Part shown: piece after piece, positions 16,276-24,912 of the stretch
Layout: every line of letters starts with the position of its first letter
Position numbering within the stretch: the first letter of the stretch is position 1
Source: Bacteroidales bacterium
Lineage (GTDB): Bacteria; Bacteroidota; Bacteroidia; Bacteroidales; UBA932
Assembly (NCBI GenBank): GCA_017617715.1
Contig: JAFZVQ010000050.1
Span: forward strand, 1 to 43,442
Direction: 5' to 3'
Length of the DNA stretch: 43,442 bases
The notes under the pieces: model-generated
What the model saw: the letters and a program-made list of their open reading frames with translations, nothing else
What the model was told of the DNA's origin: nothing
The model's database searches: none
Position numbers and translations under genes: made by a program

Positions 16276-16307
16276 CAAAAAAAACTTGGATTTTATTTTT
16301 TTGTTCA

Positions 16308-16315
16308 TATATTTG
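16308..16315 (+). promoter_or_regulatory. -7 box of the trp leader / trpB2 transcript
   Basis: TATATTTG matches TAnnTTTG, with a TTGG at 16286-16289 as a possible -33 (18-base spacer). The leader-peptide ATG at 16323 follows 7 bases after the box, so transcription would begin right at or just before the start codon. Confidence 0.6.
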
Positions 16316-16322
16316 CAGAAGT

Positions 16323-16394
16323 ATGTGTCGCGCAAACATATTTGCTTCCAACTGCTGGTGGCGCCTGAAGGATATTTCCGGACAGGCTCTATAG
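16323..16394 (+). CDS. Tryptophan leader peptide with tandem Trp codons
   Basis: A 23-codon frame starts with ATG TGT at 16323 and ends at TAG 16392-16394. Codons 12 and 13 (16356-16361) are TGG TGG, in the local context SNCWWRLKD. It sits in the leader of trpB2, between the -7 box and the terminator at 16439. A ribosome waiting at the two Trp codons would cover the 5' arm of the following stem (16363-16367 pairing with 16383-16387). This is the textbook layout of a trp attenuator leader peptide such as TrpL. Too short for routine gene finders; it probably has no function as a product. Confidence 0.85.
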   Translation: MCRANIFASNCWWRLKDISGQAL

Positions 16395-16467
16395 TTTGTG
16401 CGCATAACCGGTCGAAGACCGGCATAAGATGCAAGAGAGGCTGCCCGGAGACGGACGGCCGTTTTTT
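16330..16467 (+). ncRNA. trp attenuator leader RNA of trpB2
   Basis: Alternative pairings can be drawn by hand. With free-running translation: stem GCCTG (16363-16367)/CAGGC (16383-16387), hairpin CCGGTC/GACCGG (16408-16422), and a terminator whose 5' arm is 16439-16447. With a ribosome stalled on the Trp codons: CCGGACAGGC (16378-16387) is freed and can pair with GGCTGCCCGG (16439-16448), 8 of 10 positions, which is the 5' arm of the terminator. An outer pairing GCGCAAAC (16330-16337) with GTTTGTGCGC (16394-16403) could close the fold. I recall a Bacteroidetes leader class named Bacteroid-trp RNA; whether this belongs to it needs a covariance search. Confidence 0.75.
16439..16467 (+). terminator. 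Attenuator terminator upstream of trpB2
   Basis: The stem GGCTGCCCG (16439-16447) / CGGACGGCC (16452-16460) has 8 of 9 pairs (one U-G) around a GAGA loop and is followed by T6 at 16462-16467. It lies about 28 bases before the trpB2 ATG, inside its leader, so it is a conditional terminator rather than the end of a gene. Confidence 0.8.
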
Positions 16468-16494
16468 ATGTAATTAACACAAAACCATATTATT

Positions 16495-17865
16495 ATGAAA
16501 CAGAAAAAATTCATGCTTCCGGAATCAGAGATTCCTACCCATTACTTCAACATCCAGGCTGTGATGCCCAACAAGCCTCTCCCGTTCCTCCACCCCGGCA
16601 CGAAGCAGCCGCTCAAGAGCGAGGACCTGTATCCCATCTTCTGCAAGGCCTGCGCCGACCAGGAGCTGAACCAGACGGATGTGTGGATTCCCATTCCGGA
16701 GGAAGTGCGCCAGCAGTATGCGGCCTACCGCTGCACCCCGCTCGTGCGCGCTTATGAATTGGAAGCGGCGCTCGGCACCCCCGCCCATATATATTACAAG
16801 AACGAAAGCGTGAGCCCTGCCGGAAGCCACAAACTGAATTCCGCCATTGCCCAGGCATACTACGCCAAGGAGCAGGGTATCACGAATCTCACCACCGAGA
16901 CCGGCGCCGGCCAGTGGGGCGGGGCGCTCAGCTACGCCACGAAGAAGTTCGGCATTGAATGCGCAGTGTACATGGTAAAGGTGAGCTATGAGCAGAAGCC
17001 TTTCCGCCGCTCGATCATGCAGGCCTTCGGCGCCGCTGTGACGCCTTCCCCTTCCATGTCCACACGCGCCGGCAAGGACATACTGACCCGCAACCCCAAC
17101 GACAGGGGCTCTCTCGGCTGCGCCATCTCCGAAGCCATCGAGCTTGCCGTGTCCACCCCCAACTGCAAATATGCCCTGGGGTCAGTGCTGAACCATGTGT
17201 GCCTGCACCAGACCGTCATCGGCCTCGAAGCGGAGAAGCAGATGGAGCTCACGGGTGAATACCCCGACATAGTGGTGGCATGCTTCGGAGGCGGTTCCAA
17301 CTTCTCCGGCCTGGCGTTCCCGTTCATGAGGCACAACATACTCGAAGGCAAGAAGACACGTTTCATCGCAGCAGAGCCTTGCTCTTGCCCCAAGCTGACC
17401 AAGGGTAAGTTCGAATACGATTTCGGCGACGAGGCAGGTATGACTCCCCTCCTCCCCATGTACACCCTCGGCCACACTTTCAAGCCCGCCTCCATCCACG
17501 CCGGCGGCCTCCGCTACCACGGCGCGGGCGTCATCCTCTCCCAGCTGATGAAGGACGGCTACATGGAAGCCGTCGATATCGAGCAGCTTGATTCTTTCAA
17601 CGCAGGCGTGCTGTTCGCCCGCACCGAGGGTATCATCCCCGCACCGGAATCCTGCCATGCCATCGCCGCCACCATCACCGAGGCCCTGAAATGCAAGGAG
17701 ACCGGCGAAGCCAAGACCATCCTGTTCAACCTTTCCGGCCACGGCCTGGTGGACATGGGAGCCTACGACAGCTACTTCTCCGGCGAGATGCAGAACTACC
17801 ACGTCTCCGACGCCGACCTGCAGACCTTCATCTCCAGCGCCGACGCCCTGAACCAGTCCCGCTAG
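16495..17865 (+). CDS. trpB: Tryptophan synthase beta subunit, TrpB2 type
   Basis: A 456-residue PLP enzyme that joins indole and serine to make tryptophan. It belongs to the longer TrpB2 class: N-terminal FNIQAVMP...PLPFLHPGT, RCTPLVRAYELE, the PLP-lysine motif GSHKLNSA near residue 113, TETGAGQWGGAL, the phosphate-binding CFGGGSNFSG near 265 and HAGGLRYHG. TrpB2 usually works without TrpA and salvages free indole. No trpA or other trp gene is next to it, which fits salvage. The ATG at 16495 follows the attenuator by 27 bases, so expression should rise when charged tRNA-Trp is scarce. Confidence 0.95.
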   Translation: MKQKKFMLPESEIPTHYFNIQAVMPNKPLPFLHPGTKQPLKSEDLYPIFCKACADQELNQTDVWIPIPEEVRQQYAAYRCTPLVRAYELEAALGTPAHIYYKNESVSPAGSHKLNSAIAQAYYAKEQGITNLTTETGAGQWGGALSYATKKFGIECAVYMVKVSYEQKPFRRSIMQAFGAAVTPSPSMSTRAGKDILTRNPNDRGSLGCAISEAIELAVSTPNCKYALGSVLNHVCLHQTVIGLEAEKQMELTGEYPDIVVACFGGGSNFSGLAFPFMRHNILEGKKTRFIAAEPCSCPKLTKGKFEYDFGDEAGMTPLLPMYTLGHTFKPASIHAGGLRYHGAGVILSQLMKDGYMEAVDIEQLDSFNAGVLFARTEGIIPAPESCHAIAATITEALKCKETGEAKTILFNLSGHGLVDMGAYDSYFSGEMQNYHVSDADLQTFISSADALNQSR

Positions 17866-17889: not shown

Positions 17890-17916
17890 CGCAATCGGGA
17901 GAGAAAACGGCAAAAT
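17890..17916. repeat. Left arm of a 27-base inverted repeat
   Basis: This stretch starts CGCAATCGGGAG and continues GAAAACGGCAA; it matches the reverse complement of 18523-18549 at 25 of 27 bases. It ends on the start codon of the unknown gene at 17915. Confidence 0.75.
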
Positions 17917-18445
17917 GATTTCTGCTGAACAACAATATCGCGAAGACCTGACCCAGTGCCTTCTGGATGTGGCGACGGGGAAAGGATTCCTGAAAGGCAC
18001 CCTTCTCGGGACACCCGACCTGGACGAAGCCTGGCTGCGCTACGCCCCTTCTTTCTACGGAGACGCCGTACGCGAATTCAACGCCTACCCGGAATACTGC
18101 CTGGCCTGCGCCGGCTACATGGGGATGGCCGTGGCCCTGTTGTGGGATAAAGACTGGGAGAAACACAAAGCTACTCCGTATTCCTTCTTCCAGGGGGAGC
18201 GGCGCTTCGACGATATGGACGACCACATAACGGACAGCATCCTTAAGGAACGCAAACACAGCGTCGCCGCAATGATGGCCTGCTCCTCGGCAGCGTATAA
18301 CTTCCTGATGAAGTCGCGTGCCGAACCGGGCACCGCAGAGGCCTACAGGCTCTTCCTTATCAGCACTGAGGTAATGTACAAAATCGGCACGGCAATCGAA
18401 TTGCAGCACCTCGGGTACAAATTTGAAGCCCTACCGATAGTGTAA
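17915..18445 (+). CDS. Conserved-looking protein of unknown function
   Basis: I do not recognise this 176-residue protein. It is predicted to be soluble and mostly alpha-helical, with no signal peptide. Notable segments are KGFLKGTLLGTPDLDEAWLRYAP near the start, EFNAYPEYCLACAGYMGMAVALLWDKDW around 54-80, and a C-terminal helical stretch STEVMYKIGTAIELQHLGY. Four cysteines occur (near 15, 62, 65 and 122), one pair as CLAC. It follows trpB2 by 49 bases on the same strand, so it may be read from the same transcript. It is bracketed by the two arms of a 27-base inverted repeat. The codon use looks like that of its neighbours. Confidence 0.72.
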   Translation: MISAEQQYREDLTQCLLDVATGKGFLKGTLLGTPDLDEAWLRYAPSFYGDAVREFNAYPEYCLACAGYMGMAVALLWDKDWEKHKATPYSFFQGERRFDDMDDHITDSILKERKHSVAAMMACSSAAYNFLMKSRAEPGTAEAYRLFLISTEVMYKIGTAIELQHLGYKFEALPIV

Positions 18446-18593: not shown

Positions 18594-19622
18594 TCAGAGC
18601 AGGTCGGCGAGGTCGAGGACGAGGCGTTCGGTCTTGGGCCAGCCGAGGCAAGGGTCGGTGATGGAGCAGCCGTAGACGTGTTCGCCGGACTTCTGGGCGC
18701 CGTCTTCGATGTAGGATTCTATCATAAGTCCCTTGAAGATGCGGCGGACGGAATCGCAGGAGCGGGCGCTGTGGAGCACCTCCTTGGCGATCCTCCCCTG
18801 CTCAAGATACTTCTTCCCGGAATTGGAGTGGTTGCAATCCACTATAACTCCGGGATTGGTGTAATTCCCCTCTGCGTAGAGGTCGGCCAGACGACGGAGG
18901 TCCTCATAATGGTAGTTGGGATGGCTGGTGCCGTGGCTGTCCACGTAGCCGCGCAGGATGGCGTGGGCATAGGGATTTCCCTCGCTGGACACGTCCCAGT
19001 TGCGGTAGATGAATGAATGGCCGTGCTGGGCGGCGTTGATGGAATTCATCATCACTGACAGGTCGCCGCCGGTAGGGTTCTTCATGCCCACGGGGATGTC
19101 GAGGCCGCTCGCCACGAGCCTGTGCTGCTGGTCTTCCACGCTCCTTGCCCCGACCGCCACATAGGACAGCAGGTCGGAAAGGAACAGGTGGTTCTCGGGA
19201 TACAGCATCTCGTCGGCGCAGGAAAAACCAGTCGTCTCCAGGGCGCGCAGGTGCAGCTTACGTATGGACACAAGTCCCTTGAACAGGTCAGGGTCGGCTA
19301 TGGGGTCGGGCTGATGCAGCATACCCTTGTATCCTGCTCCCGTGGTGCGGGGCTTGTTGGTGTAGATGCGCGGCACTATGACTATCTTGTCCTCAACCTT
19401 CTCCTGCAGCGGACGCAGCCTGGAAATATAATCGAGCACCGAATCCTCCCGGTCGGCGGAACAGGGACCTATCACCAGAAGCATCTTGTCGGAACTGCCG
19501 TCCAGGATGTCCCGTATCTTCTTGTCATTGGCGGCCTTGCTTTCAGCAGCGGCAGGCGACGCTCCGTACATTCTCTTAAGTTCCTGCGGGCTGAACAGCT
19601 CGCGGTTGAATCGCATGTTCAT
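18594..19622 (-). CDS. aroG: 3-deoxy-7-phosphoheptulonate (DAHP) synthase, class I
   Basis: A 342-residue enzyme that condenses phosphoenolpyruvate and erythrose 4-phosphate, the first step of the shikimate pathway. It is of the AroF/G/H type: LVIGPCSADREDS near 50, VPRIYTNKPRTTGAGYKG near 83-100, VGMKNPTGGDLSVMMN, and the metal-site region VIVDCNHSNSGKKY near 268. The type is usually inhibited by aromatic amino acids; which one cannot be told. Start may be either ATG (19622 or 19616). It is the last gene of the leftward aromatic operon, 14 bases after tyrA. Confidence 0.93.
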   Translation of the reverse strand: MNMRFNRELFSPQELKRMYGASPAAAESKAANDKKIRDILDGSSDKMLLVIGPCSADREDSVLDYISRLRPLQEKVEDKIVIVPRIYTNKPRTTGAGYKGMLHQPDPIADPDLFKGLVSIRKLHLRALETTGFSCADEMLYPENHLFLSDLLSYVAVGARSVEDQQHRLVASGLDIPVGMKNPTGGDLSVMMNSINAAQHGHSFIYRNWDVSSEGNPYAHAILRGYVDSHGTSHPNYHYEDLRRLADLYAEGNYTNPGVIVDCNHSNSGKKYLEQGRIAKEVLHSARSCDSVRRIFKGLMIESYIEDGAQKSGEHVYGCSITDPCLGWPKTERLVLDLADLL

Positions 19623-19636
19623 ATCTTTTGCTCAAA

Positions 19637-20488
19637 TCATTTGTCAAACAATGCACGCTGCTCCGTGGAGTGGCGCATCAATTCCCTGAGTTTTTCCGTG
19701 TCCCCTTCTGCAACCGCATCCCGGATGGTGCCCATCTGGCCTATGAAAAGGTCCAGCTGGGCAAGCAGCTCGTCCTGGTTGAGCAGGAAAAGCTCGCTCC
19801 ACATCTCGTCGTTGATCCTTGCTATACGGGTAAGGTCCCGGAAAGAGTCGCCGGTGTAGGCGGACATGTGCCCCACATCTTTGCAAGTCATGAGGCCCAC
19901 CGCTATGCAGTGCGTTAGCTGGCTCAGGAAGCCTATCATCTCGTCGTGCTTCCCGGGCGAAAGCCGGCAGATGCGGGAGAAGCCGAGCACGCGGCCGAGC
20001 TCCTCTATCTCATGCACGGCCGCTTCGCTGTTGGCCGGGGTGGGAGTCACTATGTAATTGGCTTCCACGAAGATAGAGCAGTCGGCATTCTGCACTCCAT
20101 ACACCTCACGGCCGGCCATGGGGTGCGCGCCCACGAACTCCAGGTCGTCGCGGAGCATATCCTGCACCTTATAGACCACAGCCGACTTGACTCCGGTCAC
20201 GTCCGTCAGCAGGGCGCCCAGTTTCAGGAACTGCTGATACTTTTCAATCCACTCCAGGAACACATGGGGATAGAGGGCAAATACCACAAGGTCGTAGCGT
20301 CCCACGAATCCGGCAGTCACCTCTGTCGTGCCGCGGTCTATCAAGCCATGCTCCAGGGCATAATCCACGCTCGCCTGCGAACGGGTCACGGCCCCGACCT
20401 CGAAGCCCTTTCGCTTCAATGCCTGCGCATAACTGCCCCCGATCAGGCCGAGGCCCACAATCAGTATCTTTTTATCCTTAAACGGCAT
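19637..20488 (-). CDS. tyrA: Prephenate dehydrogenase
   Basis: A 283-residue NAD(P)-dependent enzyme of tyrosine synthesis, converting prephenate to 4-hydroxyphenylpyruvate. The Rossmann motif KILIVGLGLIGGSYAQAL is at the N-terminus, VGAHPMAGREVYG follows near 120, and SQLTHCIAVGLM lies in the C-terminal helical domain. There is no chorismate mutase or ACT domain, so it depends on the mutase fused to PheA in the same operon. I use the ATG at 20488 (MPFKDKK); a TTG lies 6 bases upstream. The 5' end overlaps aroE/K by 11 bases. Confidence 0.93.
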   Translation of the reverse strand: MPFKDKKILIVGLGLIGGSYAQALKRKGFEVGAVTRSQASVDYALEHGLIDRGTTEVTAGFVGRYDLVVFALYPHVFLEWIEKYQQFLKLGALLTDVTGVKSAVVYKVQDMLRDDLEFVGAHPMAGREVYGVQNADCSIFVEANYIVTPTPANSEAAVHEIEELGRVLGFSRICRLSPGKHDEMIGFLSQLTHCIAVGLMTCKDVGHMSAYTGDSFRDLTRIARINDEMWSELFLLNQDELLAQLDLFIGQMGTIRDAVAEGDTEKLRELMRHSTEQRALFDK

Positions 20489-21713
20489 ATTCAATCAATT
20501 TGTAAACGGTATGCTCAACCGGACCGTTGTTGGAAATTATGAAGTCAGCGGCTTTGGCATACAAAGGCATGCGTCTGGAATACAGCGCCATAAGCTCCTC
20601 CCGCGAACGCGACAGCGGGCGGTCGGCTGTCGGCACGAGCAACTCCGGATCCCTGTTCAGAAGAATCAGGATACCGTTGTGGCGGAGCAGGCGGCAGTTG
20701 GTTTCGGAAAGCACGGCACCGCCGCCGGTGGCAACCACAAGCCCCTGCTCCGGAGCTATGGACTCAATTGCCGCAGTCTCACGCAACCTGAAGGCGGCTT
20801 CACCCTCACGGGAAAAAATATCCGGAATCTCCATGCCTGCCTGCAGGGCAACTATCTCATCGGTGTCGACAAAACGCCGTCCGGTGTAACGGGCGAGTTC
20901 GGAGCCCACGGTGGACTTGCCGCAGGAGGGCATTCCGCAGAGCACAATGTTTCGTTTGGAGCGCATCAGATGCCGGAATTCCATTTCAACATCGCTCCCG
21001 GAGTAAGTCTCGCCGGCGAAGAGTTCACGCGCCTTTATAGCCTGTCCCACAAGCATATAGAGGCCTCCGTCAGCAGCGATCCCCCTTTCGCGGGCATCCA
21101 GGACCAGGGAAGTCCAGAGCGGATTGTAGATGCAATCCAGCACTCCCCGCAGCCTGGGGAATGAATCCAGGTCCACCAGGCGGCCCTGCCAGTCGGGATA
21201 CATCCCCACAGGCGTGGCGTTCACCAGTATGTCGCAATCCTTGAATGCAGCTATATCTGTGATCGGAAGCTGACCCTCCGCCCGGGGCGTACGGACGGCA
21301 TTGCGCACGGATGCAGCGCCCATGGAGCGGGCGGCGGCAGCCACGGCCTTGGCGGCTCCCCCGGCTCCGAGTATGACCACTCCGGCATCCCGGAAATCCA
21401 CGCTGGCGTGCCGTGCGAGCATGATGAAGCCATCGAAGTCTGTATTGTAGCCATACAGTTTGCCGTCCCGGTTCACTATGGTGTTCACGGCGCCGCTGCG
21501 GACTGCGGATTCGTCCAGCACGTCCAGATGCGGCATCACAGCCTGCTTGTAAGGTATGGTCACGTTGATGCCCCTGAAATCCCTTTCGCGAAGGAATCCG
21601 GGAAGCTCGGACGGGGCGAGTTCCCGCAGCTCATACGGGTCGGAAGAAAGCCTCCCGTGGATTTCGCGGGAGAAACTGTGGCCGAGGCGCTTGCCTATTA
21701 ATCCGTATATCAT
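20478..21713 (-). CDS. aroE/aroK: Bifunctional shikimate dehydrogenase / shikimate kinase (AroE-AroK fusion)
   Basis: A single 411-residue frame fuses two consecutive-step enzymes. Residues 1-245 are shikimate dehydrogenase: GKRLGHSFSREIH, VTIPYKQAVMPH with the catalytic lysine, YNTDFDGF and the NADP site ILGAGGAAKAVAAA, ending with GLYMLVGQAIKARELFAG. From about 250 shikimate kinase begins: NIVLCGMPSCGKSTVGSELA (P-loop), FVDTDEIV, FRLRETAAI and VVATGGGAV. The junction lies near FRHLMRSKRNIVLCG with no stop or frameshift. It would reduce 3-dehydroshikimate and then phosphorylate shikimate. Start at 21713 overlaps the aroC stop by 4 bases (ATGA). A longer open frame up to 22001 is only overlap with aroC. 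Confidence 0.93.
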   Translation of the reverse strand: MIYGLIGKRLGHSFSREIHGRLSSDPYELRELAPSELPGFLRERDFRGINVTIPYKQAVMPHLDVLDESAVRSGAVNTIVNRDGKLYGYNTDFDGFIMLARHASVDFRDAGVVILGAGGAAKAVAAAARSMGAASVRNAVRTPRAEGQLPITDIAAFKDCDILVNATPVGMYPDWQGRLVDLDSFPRLRGVLDCIYNPLWTSLVLDARERGIAADGGLYMLVGQAIKARELFAGETYSGSDVEMEFRHLMRSKRNIVLCGMPSCGKSTVGSELARYTGRRFVDTDEIVALQAGMEIPDIFSREGEAAFRLRETAAIESIAPEQGLVVATGGGAVLSETNCRLLRHNGILILLNRDPELLVPTADRPLSRSREELMALYSRRMPLYAKAADFIISNNGPVEHTVYKLIEYAV

Positions 21714-22810
21714 TTTAGGTAGTCGGTTCCGAATCTTTGGGCAAGCTGGTCGCAGAGCACTATGGCCACGAGGCTGGACACCACAATGCAGACACGGCGG
21801 ACTATGGCGGGGTCGTGGCGGCCGGTGACTTGCAGCGTGGCGGGCGACTGAGTGTCCATATCGACGGTCTGCTGAGGCTTTGAAATGGAGGGGGTAGGTT
21901 TCACTACCGCATTGAAAATAAGCGGCATGCCGTTGGATATGCCGCCATTGATGCCGCCGCTGCGGTTGGTGCTGGTGCGGACGGCACCGTCTTGCATGCA
22001 AAAAGCGTCATTGGCCTCGGAGCCGCGCATGCCCGCAAGGCTGAATCCGGCGCCGAACTCAATGCCCTTGATGCCGCCTATCGACAGCACCGCGTTGGCG
22101 ATCACGCCCTCGAGGGAACTGAACCACGGCTCCCCCACCCCGGCCGGCAAGCCGCAGACCGCTGTCTGCACCACGCCGCCCACGGAGTCGCCGTCCGCCT
22201 TGGCTTCCATTATTCGCGCCTCCATCGCTTCACGGCAACCCGTGAGCACAGGGAAATCCATGGCGGACACCGTTTCAATCTCCCTCTTCAGCGCTGACGC
22301 GTCCACGTCGCTGAACGGCGCATCCTGCACCCCGGCGCACGACAGTATATGGGTGCCTACAGTAATGCCTTTGCGTCTCAGGGCTTCGGCCGCGATGGCG
22401 CCGGCCGCAACTATTCCGGCCGTGATGCGCCCGCTGAAATGGCCGCCGCCGCGCCAGTCCTCGAAGCCTCCGTACCTGACATGTGCCACGTAATCGGCAT
22501 GGGAAGGGCGGGCAAGCAGATGCGAGCGCTCATAATCGGCACTCCGCACATTTTCGTTGGGTATTAGTATGCACACAGGAGCGCCGGTGGTGCAGCCGTT
22601 GAACACGCCGCTGACGATGCGGAAGCGGTCAGGCTCGCGACGGGCGGTATCGGCGGCACCTGAAGGCCGGCGGAGCGACAAACGGGCTGCGATAATCTCC
22701 TCGCTGACGGGTATGCCAGAGGCCATGCCGTCAAGCACGGCGACTATCATTTCTCCGTGCGACTCCCCTGCAAGGGTAAGGATCACGCTTGTGCCTATGC
22801 TGTTCTTCAT
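21710..22810 (-). CDS. aroC: Chorismate synthase
   Basis: A 366-residue FMNH2-dependent enzyme that makes chorismate from EPSP. Motifs include LTLAGESHGEMIVAVLDGMASG, RPSHADYVAHVRYGG, DWRGGGHFSGRITAG, SSLEGVIANAVLSIGGIKGIEFG and ISNGMPLIF. The GGGHFSGR form is the variant common in anaerobes. No separate flavin reductase domain is present. It shares 4-base overlaps with aroB upstream and aroE/K downstream, so translation is probably coupled. Confidence 0.95.
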   Translation of the reverse strand: MKNSIGTSVILTLAGESHGEMIVAVLDGMASGIPVSEEIIAARLSLRRPSGAADTARREPDRFRIVSGVFNGCTTGAPVCILIPNENVRSADYERSHLLARPSHADYVAHVRYGGFEDWRGGGHFSGRITAGIVAAGAIAAEALRRKGITVGTHILSCAGVQDAPFSDVDASALKREIETVSAMDFPVLTGCREAMEARIMEAKADGDSVGGVVQTAVCGLPAGVGEPWFSSLEGVIANAVLSIGGIKGIEFGAGFSLAGMRGSEANDAFCMQDGAVRTSTNRSGGINGGISNGMPLIFNAVVKPTPSISKPQQTVDMDTQSPATLQVTGRHDPAIVRRVCIVVSSLVAIVLCDQLAQRFGTDYLK

Positions 22811-23814
22811 TTGCGGGACTGTATTAACGATTCAAGTGAGGCCTGGTCGGCCCATTCGAAACGGAACGAGCCGGGAGTGTCCACACGCACGAGCTTGACG
22901 CGGCCACCGCTACGCTTCTTGTCGCGCACGGCGTAACGCATAAGCTCCTCTGTAGTAAAAGGATCGGAGACCGGGAGGGAGAATTTGCGCAGCAGGGCCT
23001 CGATGCGGGGCGCCGCCTCTCCTCCGGCCGTGTAGAGCATGCCTGCAGCCACTGCTTCGCCGTGGAAGAACGTCCCGGCGGAAGCCGCCTCGATGGCGTG
23101 CCCGACAGTGTGGCCGAAATTCAGCACCGCCCGAAGGTCCTTCTCTTCGGGATCCTGCTCCACAACCGAAATCTTTATGCGCAGTGCGGCGGCTATTATT
23201 TCCGGTAGCAGGGGCGTGATGTCCGGGCTTTCTTCCAGCAGCCGGAACAGGGCGGCATCGCTTGTGGCGGCCATTTTCACCACCTCGGCAAGGCCTTCGG
23301 AGACGAGCCTCGGGCTGAGGGTCGAAAGCGTCTGCGGGTCTATCAGCACTGCTGCAGGATGATGGAACGCCCCCACTATATTCTTGACTCCGTGGAAGTT
23401 GACGGCCGTCTTGCCGCCCACGGAAGAATCCACCTGGGAGAGAAGTGTAGTGGGCACGTTATAGTAATCTATGCCTCTCTGGTAGCAGGCGGCGGCGAAA
23501 CCGGATATGTCGCCCACCACTCCGCCGCCCACGGCCACCACGGCGTCGCGGCGCGTGAATCCGCAGTCCAGCAGGGCCGAGAGTATGGCTTCGAAATGCT
23601 TCAGGTCCTTCGCCCCCTCACCCTGCGGAAGCACCAGCAGGCTCCCCTCCGCGCACTGGGACAGGACGGCCTGCGGATAAGCTTCCGGCACGCCTTCGTC
23701 CGTGACCACCAGCACCTTGCGCCGCAGGTCGAAGAGGCGGCCGGCTTCGGAGAGCAGGCCGTTGCCTATGTGGATGTCACAAGCTATTCCGCCGGAATGG
23801 AACTGAAGGGTCAT
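22807..23814 (-). CDS. aroB: 3-Dehydroquinate synthase
   Basis: A 335-residue NAD- and metal-dependent enzyme that cyclises DAHP to 3-dehydroquinate. Motifs are VVAVGGGVVGDISGFAAACYQRG, VPTTLLSQVDSSVGGKTAVNF near 120-140, and the metal-binding LNFGHTVGHAIE near 230. The following FHGEAVAAGM is also typical. It starts 3 bases after the pheA stop and overlaps aroC by 4 bases. Confidence 0.95.
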   Translation of the reverse strand: MTLQFHSGGIACDIHIGNGLLSEAGRLFDLRRKVLVVTDEGVPEAYPQAVLSQCAEGSLLVLPQGEGAKDLKHFEAILSALLDCGFTRRDAVVAVGGGVVGDISGFAAACYQRGIDYYNVPTTLLSQVDSSVGGKTAVNFHGVKNIVGAFHHPAAVLIDPQTLSTLSPRLVSEGLAEVVKMAATSDAALFRLLEESPDITPLLPEIIAAALRIKISVVEQDPEEKDLRAVLNFGHTVGHAIEAASAGTFFHGEAVAAGMLYTAGGEAAPRIEALLRKFSLPVSDPFTTEELMRYAVRDKKRSGGRVKLVRVDTPGSFRFEWADQASLESLIQSRK

Positions 23815-23817
23815 GTC

Positions 23818-24912
23818 TCAGATTTTCAGGCTCTTGTAGGCGCCTACCATCTTCAGCCTGTCGCACACGGTCTCGAGCTGGCGCAGGAGGTCCTGTCCGT
23901 TTTCGGTCCCGACGCTACCTTCCAGTTCTGCGAAGAAATAGTGGTTCCAGAGGGGACCGGCCACAGGACGGCTGTGAAGGCTGCTCATGTTGAAGCCATG
24001 GGAACCTATGATATTCAGTATCTTGGCAAGCGCGCCGGCTTCGTTGCGCACAGTGAACACCAGTATGAAGTGCTCGCCTTCGGTCTCGGGCTGCGTGCTC
24101 CTGTTGCGGGCGCGGGAAAATACCGCGAAACGGGTGGTGTTGGCCACCGCAGAGTTGATGTTGGGCTCCAGCACCTCAAGGCCGTACATGGCGGCCGTCT
24201 GGCGGGAAGCTATCGCGCCGATGGTCTTGTCGCCCGCCTCAGCCACCTGCTTTGCCGCTGCGGCAGTGTTGGAGAACTCCCTGGCTTCAAGGCCACGGTC
24301 CGTAATGAAACGGGCGCACTGGGCAAGCGCCTGGGGGTGGCTCAGGACCGTGCGTATGTCTTCGGGGCGGGCGCCCGGGATGCCCAGAAGGTTCTGGGAC
24401 ACGTCCAGCTCAAGCATCAGGTTGATGTAAAGGCTGCCGTGGAAGGTAAGGTCCATCACGCCTCCCACGTCGCCTGCGAAACTGTTCTCTATCGGCAGCA
24501 CGGCGGTGTCGGCGTCACCCTTCTCGCATGCCTTGTAGGCACTTTCGAAATCGGGATAAGGCAGGATGTCGGCTTCCGGGAACACGCTTTCGGCGGCAAT
24601 GTGCGCAAAAGCACCCGGCACGCCGCAGTAGGCTATCTTCATCCCGTTCATCAGGCGCCCCTGGTAGGCTTTCGATATCTTCATCATGTCCCTGAGGAAC
24701 AGGACGTAGTATTCCTGGATGGCGGGGTCGGAGATGTTGTCCGTGTTGTTTGCTATCACCCGCGCCTCCTGGGCGGCGTCAAGTATGGGGAGACCGTTGC
24801 CTTTCTTGTAGTCCAGCACTTTGCCGGCCAGCCTCATCCTCTTCTCGAAGAGGACGGCCATTTCCTTGTCTACTGCCGCGATACCCCGGCGGGCTTCTTC
24901 CAATTCATTCAT
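23818..24912 (-). CDS. pheA: Bifunctional chorismate mutase / prephenate dehydratase with ACT domain
   Basis: A 364-residue enzyme for phenylalanine synthesis. An AroQ-type chorismate mutase helix bundle occupies residues 1-88 (EEARRGIAAVDKEMAVLFEKRM...). Prephenate dehydratase follows from about 93 (KIAYCGVPGAFAH, LPIENSFAGDVGGV, NTTRFAVF with the TRF motif near 262), and an ACT regulatory domain ends the protein (ILVFTVRNEAGALAKILNII, then SLHSRPV where ESRP is usual). Feedback inhibition by phenylalanine is expected. First gene of the aromatic operon; a terminator-like hairpin ends 11 bases before its ATG and no promoter is visible between the two. Confidence 0.94.
   Translation of the reverse strand: MNELEEARRGIAAVDKEMAVLFEKRMRLAGKVLDYKKGNGLPILDAAQEARVIANNTDNISDPAIQEYYVLFLRDMMKISKAYQGRLMNGMKIAYCGVPGAFAHIAAESVFPEADILPYPDFESAYKACEKGDADTAVLPIENSFAGDVGGVMDLTFHGSLYINLMLELDVSQNLLGIPGARPEDIRTVLSHPQALAQCARFITDRGLEAREFSNTAAAAKQVAEAGDKTIGAIASRQTAAMYGLEVLEPNINSAVANTTRFAVFSRARNRSTQPETEGEHFILVFTVRNEAGALAKILNIIGSHGFNMSSLHSRPVAGPLWNHYFFAELEGSVGTENGQDLLRQLETVCDRLKMVGAYKSLKI

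Follow-up and report, generated by a model that had tools for sequence, protein, structure and literature searches.

A probable ribosome-mediated Trp attenuator with a predicted leaderless leader peptide upstream of trpB2 in Bacteroidales

The leader in front of a stand-alone trpB2 in a Bacteroidales bacterium very probably acts as a ribosome-mediated transcription attenuator of this gene, as judged from its sequence and from folding models. It lies at positions 16308 to 16494 of a 43,442-nucleotide contig (GenBank JAFZVQ010000050.1), the whole of which is referred to here as the window. The evidence consists of the anatomy of the leader, its conservation and covariation in relatives, and a predicted fold switch at a Trp codon, all obtained from sequence and computation. 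As in classical Trp attenuators, a tandem-Trp open reading frame (ORF) is located upstream of a Trp gene and is followed by mutually exclusive antiterminator and terminator pairings; in silico, stalling at the Trp codons freed the antiterminator element in the window and, at a weak threshold, in 85 of 85 truncated leaders. The leader is mechanistically ordinary, and what is unusual is its placing before trpB2, the likely leaderless sensor peptide, and the turnover of the RNA core. A search of the full-text literature, with most subscription journals and supplements outside its scope, uncovered among the papers listed neither a trpB2 attenuator nor any leaderless leader peptide from Bacteroidota.

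Leader anatomy and predicted folding

The following features were recognized in the window.

16285 to 16288, + strand: CTTG, the −33 promoter element, read directly, with a 19-nt spacer to the −7 box
16308 to 16315, + strand: −7 promoter box TATATTTG, read directly
16320, + strand: predicted transcription start (+1), placed from the box position and giving a 5′ untranslated region (5′UTR) of 3 nt
16321 to 16337, + strand: 5′ arm of a start-region lock stem, including the AUG (minimum-energy fold)
16323 to 16394, + strand: leader peptide ORF of 23 codons, MCRANIFASNCWWRLKDISGQAL, with ATG at 16323 and stop codon TAG at 16392 to 16394
16356 to 16361, + strand: tandem Trp control codons TGG TGG, read directly
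16363 to 16367, + strand: element 1, GCCUG, pairing with 16383 to 16387 (from the fold)
16375 to 16390, + strand: element 2, UUUCCGGACAGGCUCU, whose partner is either element 1 or element 3
16394 to 16408, + strand: 3′ arm of the start-region lock stem, from the stop codon onward (minimum-energy fold)
16408 to 16422, + strand: spacer hairpin CCGGTC-GAA-GACCGG, read directly and found on folding
16433 to 16467, + strand: intrinsic terminator, a hairpin (−15.4 kcal/mol) plus T6, whose core stem covaries in relatives
16435 to 16451, + strand: element 3, GAGAGGCUGCCCGGAGA, pairing with element 2 and also serving as the terminator 5′ arm
16495 to 17865, + strand: trpB2, encoding a TrpB-like PLP enzyme (NF009057/TIGR01415; profile match), the putatively controlled gene
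18594 to 24912, − strand: aromatic amino acid cluster adjoining trpB2 (profile matches)

A preliminary description of this region had placed a promoter box, a 23-codon peptide and TGGTGG at these same positions, and direct reading found all of them there. The stem proposed directly after the Trp codons is also present, with GCCTG at 16363 to 16367 pairing perfectly with CAGGC at 16383 to 16387, as is the hairpin claimed at 16408 to 16422, which by eye is absent from some relatives and so is not universal. The terminator, claimed at 16439 to 16467, has a hairpin that runs from 16433 to 16466, with a core stem of GGCUG.CCG and CGG.CGGCC (16439 to 16460) and a T6 tract at 16462 to 16467. Pairing of 16378 to 16387 with 16439 to 16448 had been put at 8 of 10 positions, which is correct, and the full antiterminator is longer, with 14 pairs between 16375 to 16390 and 16435 to 16451 (−22.5 kcal/mol as a duplex). 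The lock stem closing the start region of the leader (−17.8 kcal/mol as a duplex) was additional to the elements listed previously. The fold of 16320 to 16470 had an energy of −59.3 kcal/mol (z = −4.2), and none of 200 shuffles was as low.

Ribosome stalling was modeled by masking the RNA as far as 15 nt past the first P-site nucleotide. The probability of the terminator in the window was 0.96 with no ribosome, 0.72 with the first Trp codon in the A site, 0.05 with the second, and 0.96 with the ribosome at the stop codon. Scanned along the ORF, this probability was 0.72 at codons 11 and 12, 0.05 at codons 13 and 14 (the second Trp codon and the next), 0.31 at codon 15, and 0.87 to 0.96 at all other A-site positions. 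The drop from 0.96 to 0.05 at the second Trp codon in this model supports the proposal that stalling at the Trp codons should allow read-through.

In the mechanism that we infer, which takes in the transcription start, the stalling itself and the direction of regulation in vivo, RNA polymerase would start about 3 nt before the leader AUG and produce a (near-)leaderless leader mRNA on which a ribosome would load and translate the 23-codon peptide. When charged tRNA-Trp is scarce, this ribosome would stall at the WW codons and cover element 1, leaving element 2 free to pair with element 3 (the terminator 5′ arm) and permitting read-through into trpB2. When Trp is ample, the ribosome would reach the stop codon and cover element 2, so that the terminator would form and transcription would stop before trpB2. 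On a ribosome-free leader, element 2 would be kept off element 3 by element 1 and the start-lock stem, and the terminator would again form.

Conservation, covariation and three architectures in relatives

The trpB2 gene was present in 51 of 61 genomes of the genus. Fifty upstream regions, from 49 of these 51 genomes (G010 and G029 were left out), were read, and a short leader ORF with WW or WWW preceded trpB2 in 35 of them; 14 of the 49 genomes had no such leader, and one of the 15 regions without the ORF was a contig end (L041). A wider set was made by adding 80 loci from named contigs, with titles indicating uncultured Bacteroidales and their kin, many from the rumen. The 130 merged regions comprised 119 distinct ones, with a Trp-rich leader ORF picked in 91 and not in the other 28. 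Two picks were false, namely L147 (the end of an upstream gene) and L133 (the wrong ORF, with a WWW stretch further on), and a WW or WWW leader ORF was thus found before trpB2 in 89 of the 119 distinct regions, with L041 (81 nt) and L128 (1 nt upstream, with L155, also 1 nt, merged into it) counted as misses. In a family-wide draw, trpB2 was present in 71 of 119 genomes, and a Trp leader ORF was found in 12 of the 27 new loci read, across 7 of 9 genera, with the gene start assumed at the match and some loci lying at contig edges. Six trpB2 copies without a WW ORF (L030, L033, L037, L038, L042 and L049) were preceded by a terminator-like hairpin, which by eye seemingly ended the upstream gene.

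Terminators were found in 86 of the 90 leaders searched. One of these, in L048, was a wrong hairpin, and the search rule found none in L137, L139, L143 and L146, leaving a usable set of 85; L133 was kept in the pairing and folding sets with a hand-set Trp position. A model built on type A leaders (R1; types are defined below) gave 15 strong matches (63 to 99 bits) in the 61 genomes, all located directly before trpB2. Fourteen of these were training rows and one (G010) was outside the training set, and the next match, at 32 bits, and all weaker ones were taken as noise.

One alternative is that the hairpin does no more than terminate an upstream transcript and that the WW ORF arose by chance. 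Intergenic terminators are common, and TGGTGG does turn up at random after TTTG and ATG, this pattern occurring at 20 places in the genome of the window. Just 2 of these 20 places are open and in frame, however (the second is on contig C57). In addition, the gene upstream is divergently oriented, and dozens of relatives share the WW ORF together with the promoter and the alternative pairings. A chance origin is largely refuted by this conservation and can be regarded as extremely improbable. As a genus-wide search, the pattern of box, ATG and TGGTGG was rejected as uninformative, since it matched 61 of 61 genomes and its reversed control also matched often.

The 85 leaders with a usable terminator were sorted by element 2 into 24 of type A (including the window), 46 of type B and 15 of type C. 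In type A, an element 2 of the form UCCGGnCAG pairs with CUGnCCGGA, made up of the terminator 5′ arm and loop. In type B, ACUUGCAG, CUGUAAGU and ACUUACAG are elements 1, 2 and 3, respectively, and element 3 is located in the loop and 3′ arm, while the elements of type C are of the AGUCGUA kind. On a FastTree tree of trpB2 proteins (99 rows; L137, L139, L143 and L146 were typed by hand and L128 was labeled "none"), the states A, B, C and none needed at least 21 changes, compared with a minimum of 3 and a shuffled mean of 46.9, a count that may be too high for a quick tree of near relatives; well-supported branches alone forced 6 changes for A and 6 for B. These changes indicate that the RNA core seems to have been repeatedly exchanged, with three antiterminator architectures replacing one another before trpB2. 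With antiterminator designs swapped repeatedly in front of a single gene, these leaders offer a useful example of regulatory turnover.

For pair counts, alignments were made of type A (alignment A1, 24 leaders) and type B, with type C left out, and kinship was not removed from the resulting covariation tests. For the type A antiterminator, 87.4% of cells were paired, and changes on both sides were seen in 5 pairs and 19 cells; the shuffled value for such double-changed cells was 10.0 ± 3.0, the covariation score was 0.188 versus 0.121 in shuffles, and none of 500 shuffles was as high by either measure. The type A terminator stem was paired in 95.2% of cells, with a score of 0.248 versus 0.165 (0 of 500 shuffles as high), while stem 1:2, although paired in 92.5% of cells, covaried weakly (27 of 500 as high). 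Covariation was seen for both stem 1:2 and the terminator of type B. The type B antiterminator was paired in 94.4% of cells, and its score was 0.035 both as observed and in shuffles; it hardly covaries because it hardly varies. Element 2 and element 3 of the same leader paired better than cross-pairs (P = 0.0002, 0.0002 and 0.015 for types A, B and C, respectively, kinship uncorrected). With mononucleotide shuffles of element 2 as the reference, the element 2/3 duplex had mean z values of −1.4, −2.9 and −1.8 for types A, B and C, with a range of −4.4 to +1.1 within type A. Conservation of the Trp codons and of the pairing in relatives had been proposed as a point on which the attenuator would stand or fall; all 24 aligned type A leaders contain TGGTGG unchanged, and the pairing covaries.

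Full-length leaders exhibited equilibrium switching in few relatives (10 of 24 type A, 10 of 46 type B and 1 of 15 type C). As the complete terminator usually wins at equilibrium in these relatives, a switch there would have to be kinetic. For nascent transcripts, the final 9 nt of the terminator hairpin were left off before folding, and the threshold was set at a minimum of 6 expected antiterminator pairs. With the ribosome at the Trp codons, antiterminator pairing was then found in 85 of 85 leaders, compared with 16 of 85 with no ribosome and 36 of 85 with the ribosome at the stop codon. The threshold of 6 pairs is weak by itself, as dinucleotide-shuffled spacers reached it in 1193 of 1700 cases, with a mean of 8.4 expected pairs versus 15.4 observed. 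For 58 of the 85 leaders, the expected number of pairs was reached by at most 1 of 20 spacer shuffles, and the Trp-stalled window had 16.7 expected pairs versus a mean of 6.3, a value reached by 6 of 500 dinucleotide spacer shuffles.

Promoter spacing, the start region and the trpB2 gene

The −33 and −7 elements of the window make up a promoter of the Bacteroidota type. The −7 consensus is given as TAnnTTTG in the text of PMC7366714, and in that of PMC9723704 the box is at −12 to −5 in a flavobacterium; this position puts +1 of the window at 16320 and hence predicts the 3-nt 5′UTR. In the window, TTTG is located 7 nt before the leader AUG. Among 89 leaders, the distance between TTG and AUG was 7 nt in 35, 8 nt in 23, 9 nt in 6, 6 nt in 4 and 5 nt in 4, so that the AUG followed the TTG of the promoter box by 5 to 9 nt in 72 leaders; three others had TTG at 3, 11 or 13 nt, and 14, one of them at a contig edge, had none within 13 nt. 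When 75 leaders were aligned at the box, it ended in TTTG in 70 and conformed to the full TAnnTTTG in 28, and a second conserved TTG was apparent upstream at about −33. The short spacing kept between box and AUG, together with the −12 to −5 position of the box, lends support to the putative leaderless leader peptide of the preliminary description, and the position of the leader AUG predicts a 5′UTR of a few nucleotides, that is, a likely (near-)leaderless leader mRNA.

Transcription could instead start further upstream than TATATTTG predicts, giving the leader a normal 5′UTR, so that the attenuator would be right and its leaderless nature wrong. The start in the window is a prediction, just 28 of 75 boxes fit the full consensus, and seven leaders forming a subclade (L131, L135, L137, L139, L140, L145 and L151) have some 20 nt or more between box and AUG. 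Short leaders are also rare in the phylum, with 5′UTRs of <10 nt put at about 3.7% in B. thetaiotaomicron in the text of PMC7366714 and leaderless mRNAs at 5.5% in F. psychrophilum in that of PMC9723704. Against a normal 5′UTR are the spacing of 5 to 9 nt in 72 of 89 leaders and the TTTG in 70 of 75 boxed leaders with the conserved TTG at about −33, and we consider this alternative unlikely. Leaders of trp operons in the genus were mixed, with TTTG 6 to 7 nt from the AUG in G012, G008 and G058 and none so close in G016, G060 and G013.

In 72 of 84 leaders, the start region paired with the sequence following element 2 (at least 5 expected pairs; L137, L139, L143, L146, L048 and L133 were left out). 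Own pairs exceeded cross-pairs in this start-lock analysis, with P values of 0.015, 0.0002 and 0.034 for types A, B and C, kinship not being removed. On folding, the AUG of the window was unpaired with a probability of 0.34. The start-lock stem may hold the ribosome-free leader in the terminating state and limit reinitiation.

The product of the gene at 16495 to 17865 passed the cut-offs of both NF009057 (692.2 bits; cut-off, 366) and TIGR01415 (593.2 bits; cut-off, 518.85) but scored 144.8 bits against the trpB1 model TIGR00263, below the required 392.45 bits, demonstrating that it is TrpB2 and not TrpB1. Three PALP-family matches were detected in the assembly of the window, which is 76.6% complete, and as these were trpB2, cysteate synthase and threonine synthase, no trpB1 was found in it. 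Neither trpA nor trpC was found in this genome at that level of completeness; in the genus, trpA (over the cut-off) and trpC were each present in the same 8 of 61 genomes. The absence of trpA and trpC from most genomes of the genus suggests that TrpB2 makes Trp from indole, and its role is probably indole salvage. Conversion of indole to Trp in an archaeon with TrpB1 and TrpB2 is recounted in the text of PMC11085991. Control by Trp codons would mean that the cell treats the TrpB2 product as a supply of tryptophan, and the leader gives a likely function to a gene known in databases merely as "TrpB-like." If indole is salvaged, it could come from neighbors in the rumen or gut or from the cell's own tryptophanase-family enzyme.

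Several chorismate, Phe and Tyr steps are encoded in the window, as indicated by profile matches. The cluster at 18594 to 24912 encodes DAHP synthase, prephenate dehydrogenase, a shikimate dehydrogenase/kinase-like protein, chorismate synthase, dehydroquinate synthase and chorismate mutase/prephenate dehydratase. An ORF of 176 amino acids (17915 to 18445, + strand), without an NCBIfam or Pfam match, begins about 50 nt past trpB2 and is possibly cotranscribed. Elsewhere in the genome of the window, near a contig end, a tryptophanase-subfamily protein (L252; G000:C16:6-1127, minus strand) matched NF009709 at 449.5 bits (cut-off, 285) and fell below the TnaA and tyrosine phenol-lyase equivalog cut-offs; should it prove to be a genuine tryptophanase, the cell would be able to produce indole as well as reuse it. 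The trpB2 leader was present in 33 of 42 genomes without trpA and trpC versus 2 of 7 with them (Fisher P = 0.015, uncorrected). A link between the lack of a trp operon and a leader on trpB2 was set aside, with three independent pairs left after kinship control in a test in which 19 of 49 rows were 100-residue fragments.

A joint reading, which we put forward tentatively and rate as somewhat less probable than its contrary, is that the leaderless leader peptide would be a built-in timing device, combined with indole salvage by trpB2 and a swapped RNA core. As the AUG emerges almost first, loading of a ribosome at the 5′ end could precede synthesis of the pairing elements, and the start-lock stem would then shut the AUG to later ribosomes. 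The module would act on trpB2 in bacteria mostly bereft of de novo Trp synthesis, and three architectures would have been exchanged while the Trp codons, the short promoter-to-AUG spacing and the target gene stayed constant. Shine-Dalgarno sites are seldom used in this phylum, and dozens of natural leader variants without room for a ribosome-binding site are supplied here, so that the speed of ribosome loading for attenuation becomes testable.

Comparison with known Trp leaders

The Bacteroid-trp RNA is Rfam family RF01692 (Weinberg et al. 2010; text of PMC2864571). Membership of the window in this class, which had been suggested, was not borne out, as a covariance-model search with RF01692 gave no match at the gathering cut-off (49 bits) or with an E value of up to 10. 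In the genus, RF01692 matched 1 of 61 genomes (G012, 49.2 bits), before a trpB1-led trp operon and not before trpB2. In the order, it matched 11 of 149 genomes, with 7 matches over the cut-off; by eye, 9 of these 11 loci precede trpB1- or trpE-like genes, one precedes another gene and one was not read. A WW or WWW peptide was present at 11 of 11 loci, and TTTG was located 19 to 25 nt before the leader AUG in 9 of 11 and about 31 nt before it in L245; L249 was ambiguous, as its possible starts place TTTG at a distance of 5, 11 or 17 nt, and it has TATATTTG further up. The window leader shares with RF01692 a cis-regulatory position in Bacteroidota and a Trp-rich peptide but differs from it in preceding trpB2 instead of a trp operon, in having TTTG nearer the AUG, and in its pairing elements.

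The leader may still descend from RF01692 and be too diverged for the model, in which case it would merely be a new member of that family. Both occur in the same phylum with the same WW(W) peptide logic, the trpB2 leader peptide of G012 is similar to that of the 49.2-bit trp-operon leader in the same genome, and, by eye, leaders of type C (WWWRSLQL, AGUCGUAG) look like those of RF01692. Conversely, the window gave no match even with an E value of up to 10, the single match among the 61 genus genomes is at a trp operon, elements 1 to 3 of type A differ, and the 19 to 25 nt between TTTG and AUG in 9 of 11 RF01692 loci compares with 7 nt in the window. Descent from RF01692 is a real possibility, if a somewhat less probable one than a separate standing.

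Of the trp-operon carriers in the genus, which include G001 and G049, six had the region upstream of trpB1 read (G008, G012, G013, G016, G058 and G060); WW(W) leaders precede trpB1 in all six, and RF01692 detects just one of the genus WWW leaders before trpB1-led operons. WWW peptides (AYWWWRLLQL, SYWWWRFYNF and the like) were seen before trpB1-led trp operons at L168:1251, L170:1630, L171:1090, L172:1902 and L166 (minus strand).

The E. coli trpL attenuator contains tandem Trp codons and mutually exclusive 1:2, 2:3 and 3:4 pairings. Its Rfam family, RF00513 (Trp_leader), gave no match in the window at the gathering cut-off (41 bits) or with an E value of up to 10, and 0 of 61 genus genomes exceeded 41 bits. 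Type B leaders at trpB2 scored 30.0 to 39.4 bits in 5 of 61 genus genomes, the best at 39.4 and the four others at 30 to 36; a sixth match, in G059, was rejected as a tRNA gene with a terminator. Two type B leaders, L052:349-450 (−) and L050:428-530 (+), which scored 39.4 and 23.7 bits against the threshold of 41, have a WWRT peptide core, and E. coli TrpL has a similar one. The window leader is like RF00513 in its tandem Trp codons and mutually exclusive pairings and unlike it in its very short predicted 5′UTR and in having trpB2 as a single target in place of an operon.

According to the text of PMC7298713, the trpL RNA (rnTrpL) of Sinorhizobium meliloti starts directly at the AUG of its leader ORF, which makes it a known precedent for a leaderless attenuator peptide; this Trp attenuator is similar in that respect but is alphaproteobacterial and located before trpE(G). 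In the same phylum as the window, the text of PMC9723704, with supplements outside the scope, gives clues to attenuation upstream of amino acid biosynthesis operons in Flavobacterium psychrophilum, and trpB2 and a leaderless leader peptide were not found in that text. As the window matches neither RF01692 nor RF00513, it represents the textbook mechanism in a divergent form and is filed as a divergent variant of the ribosome-mediated Trp attenuators, outside both Rfam families.
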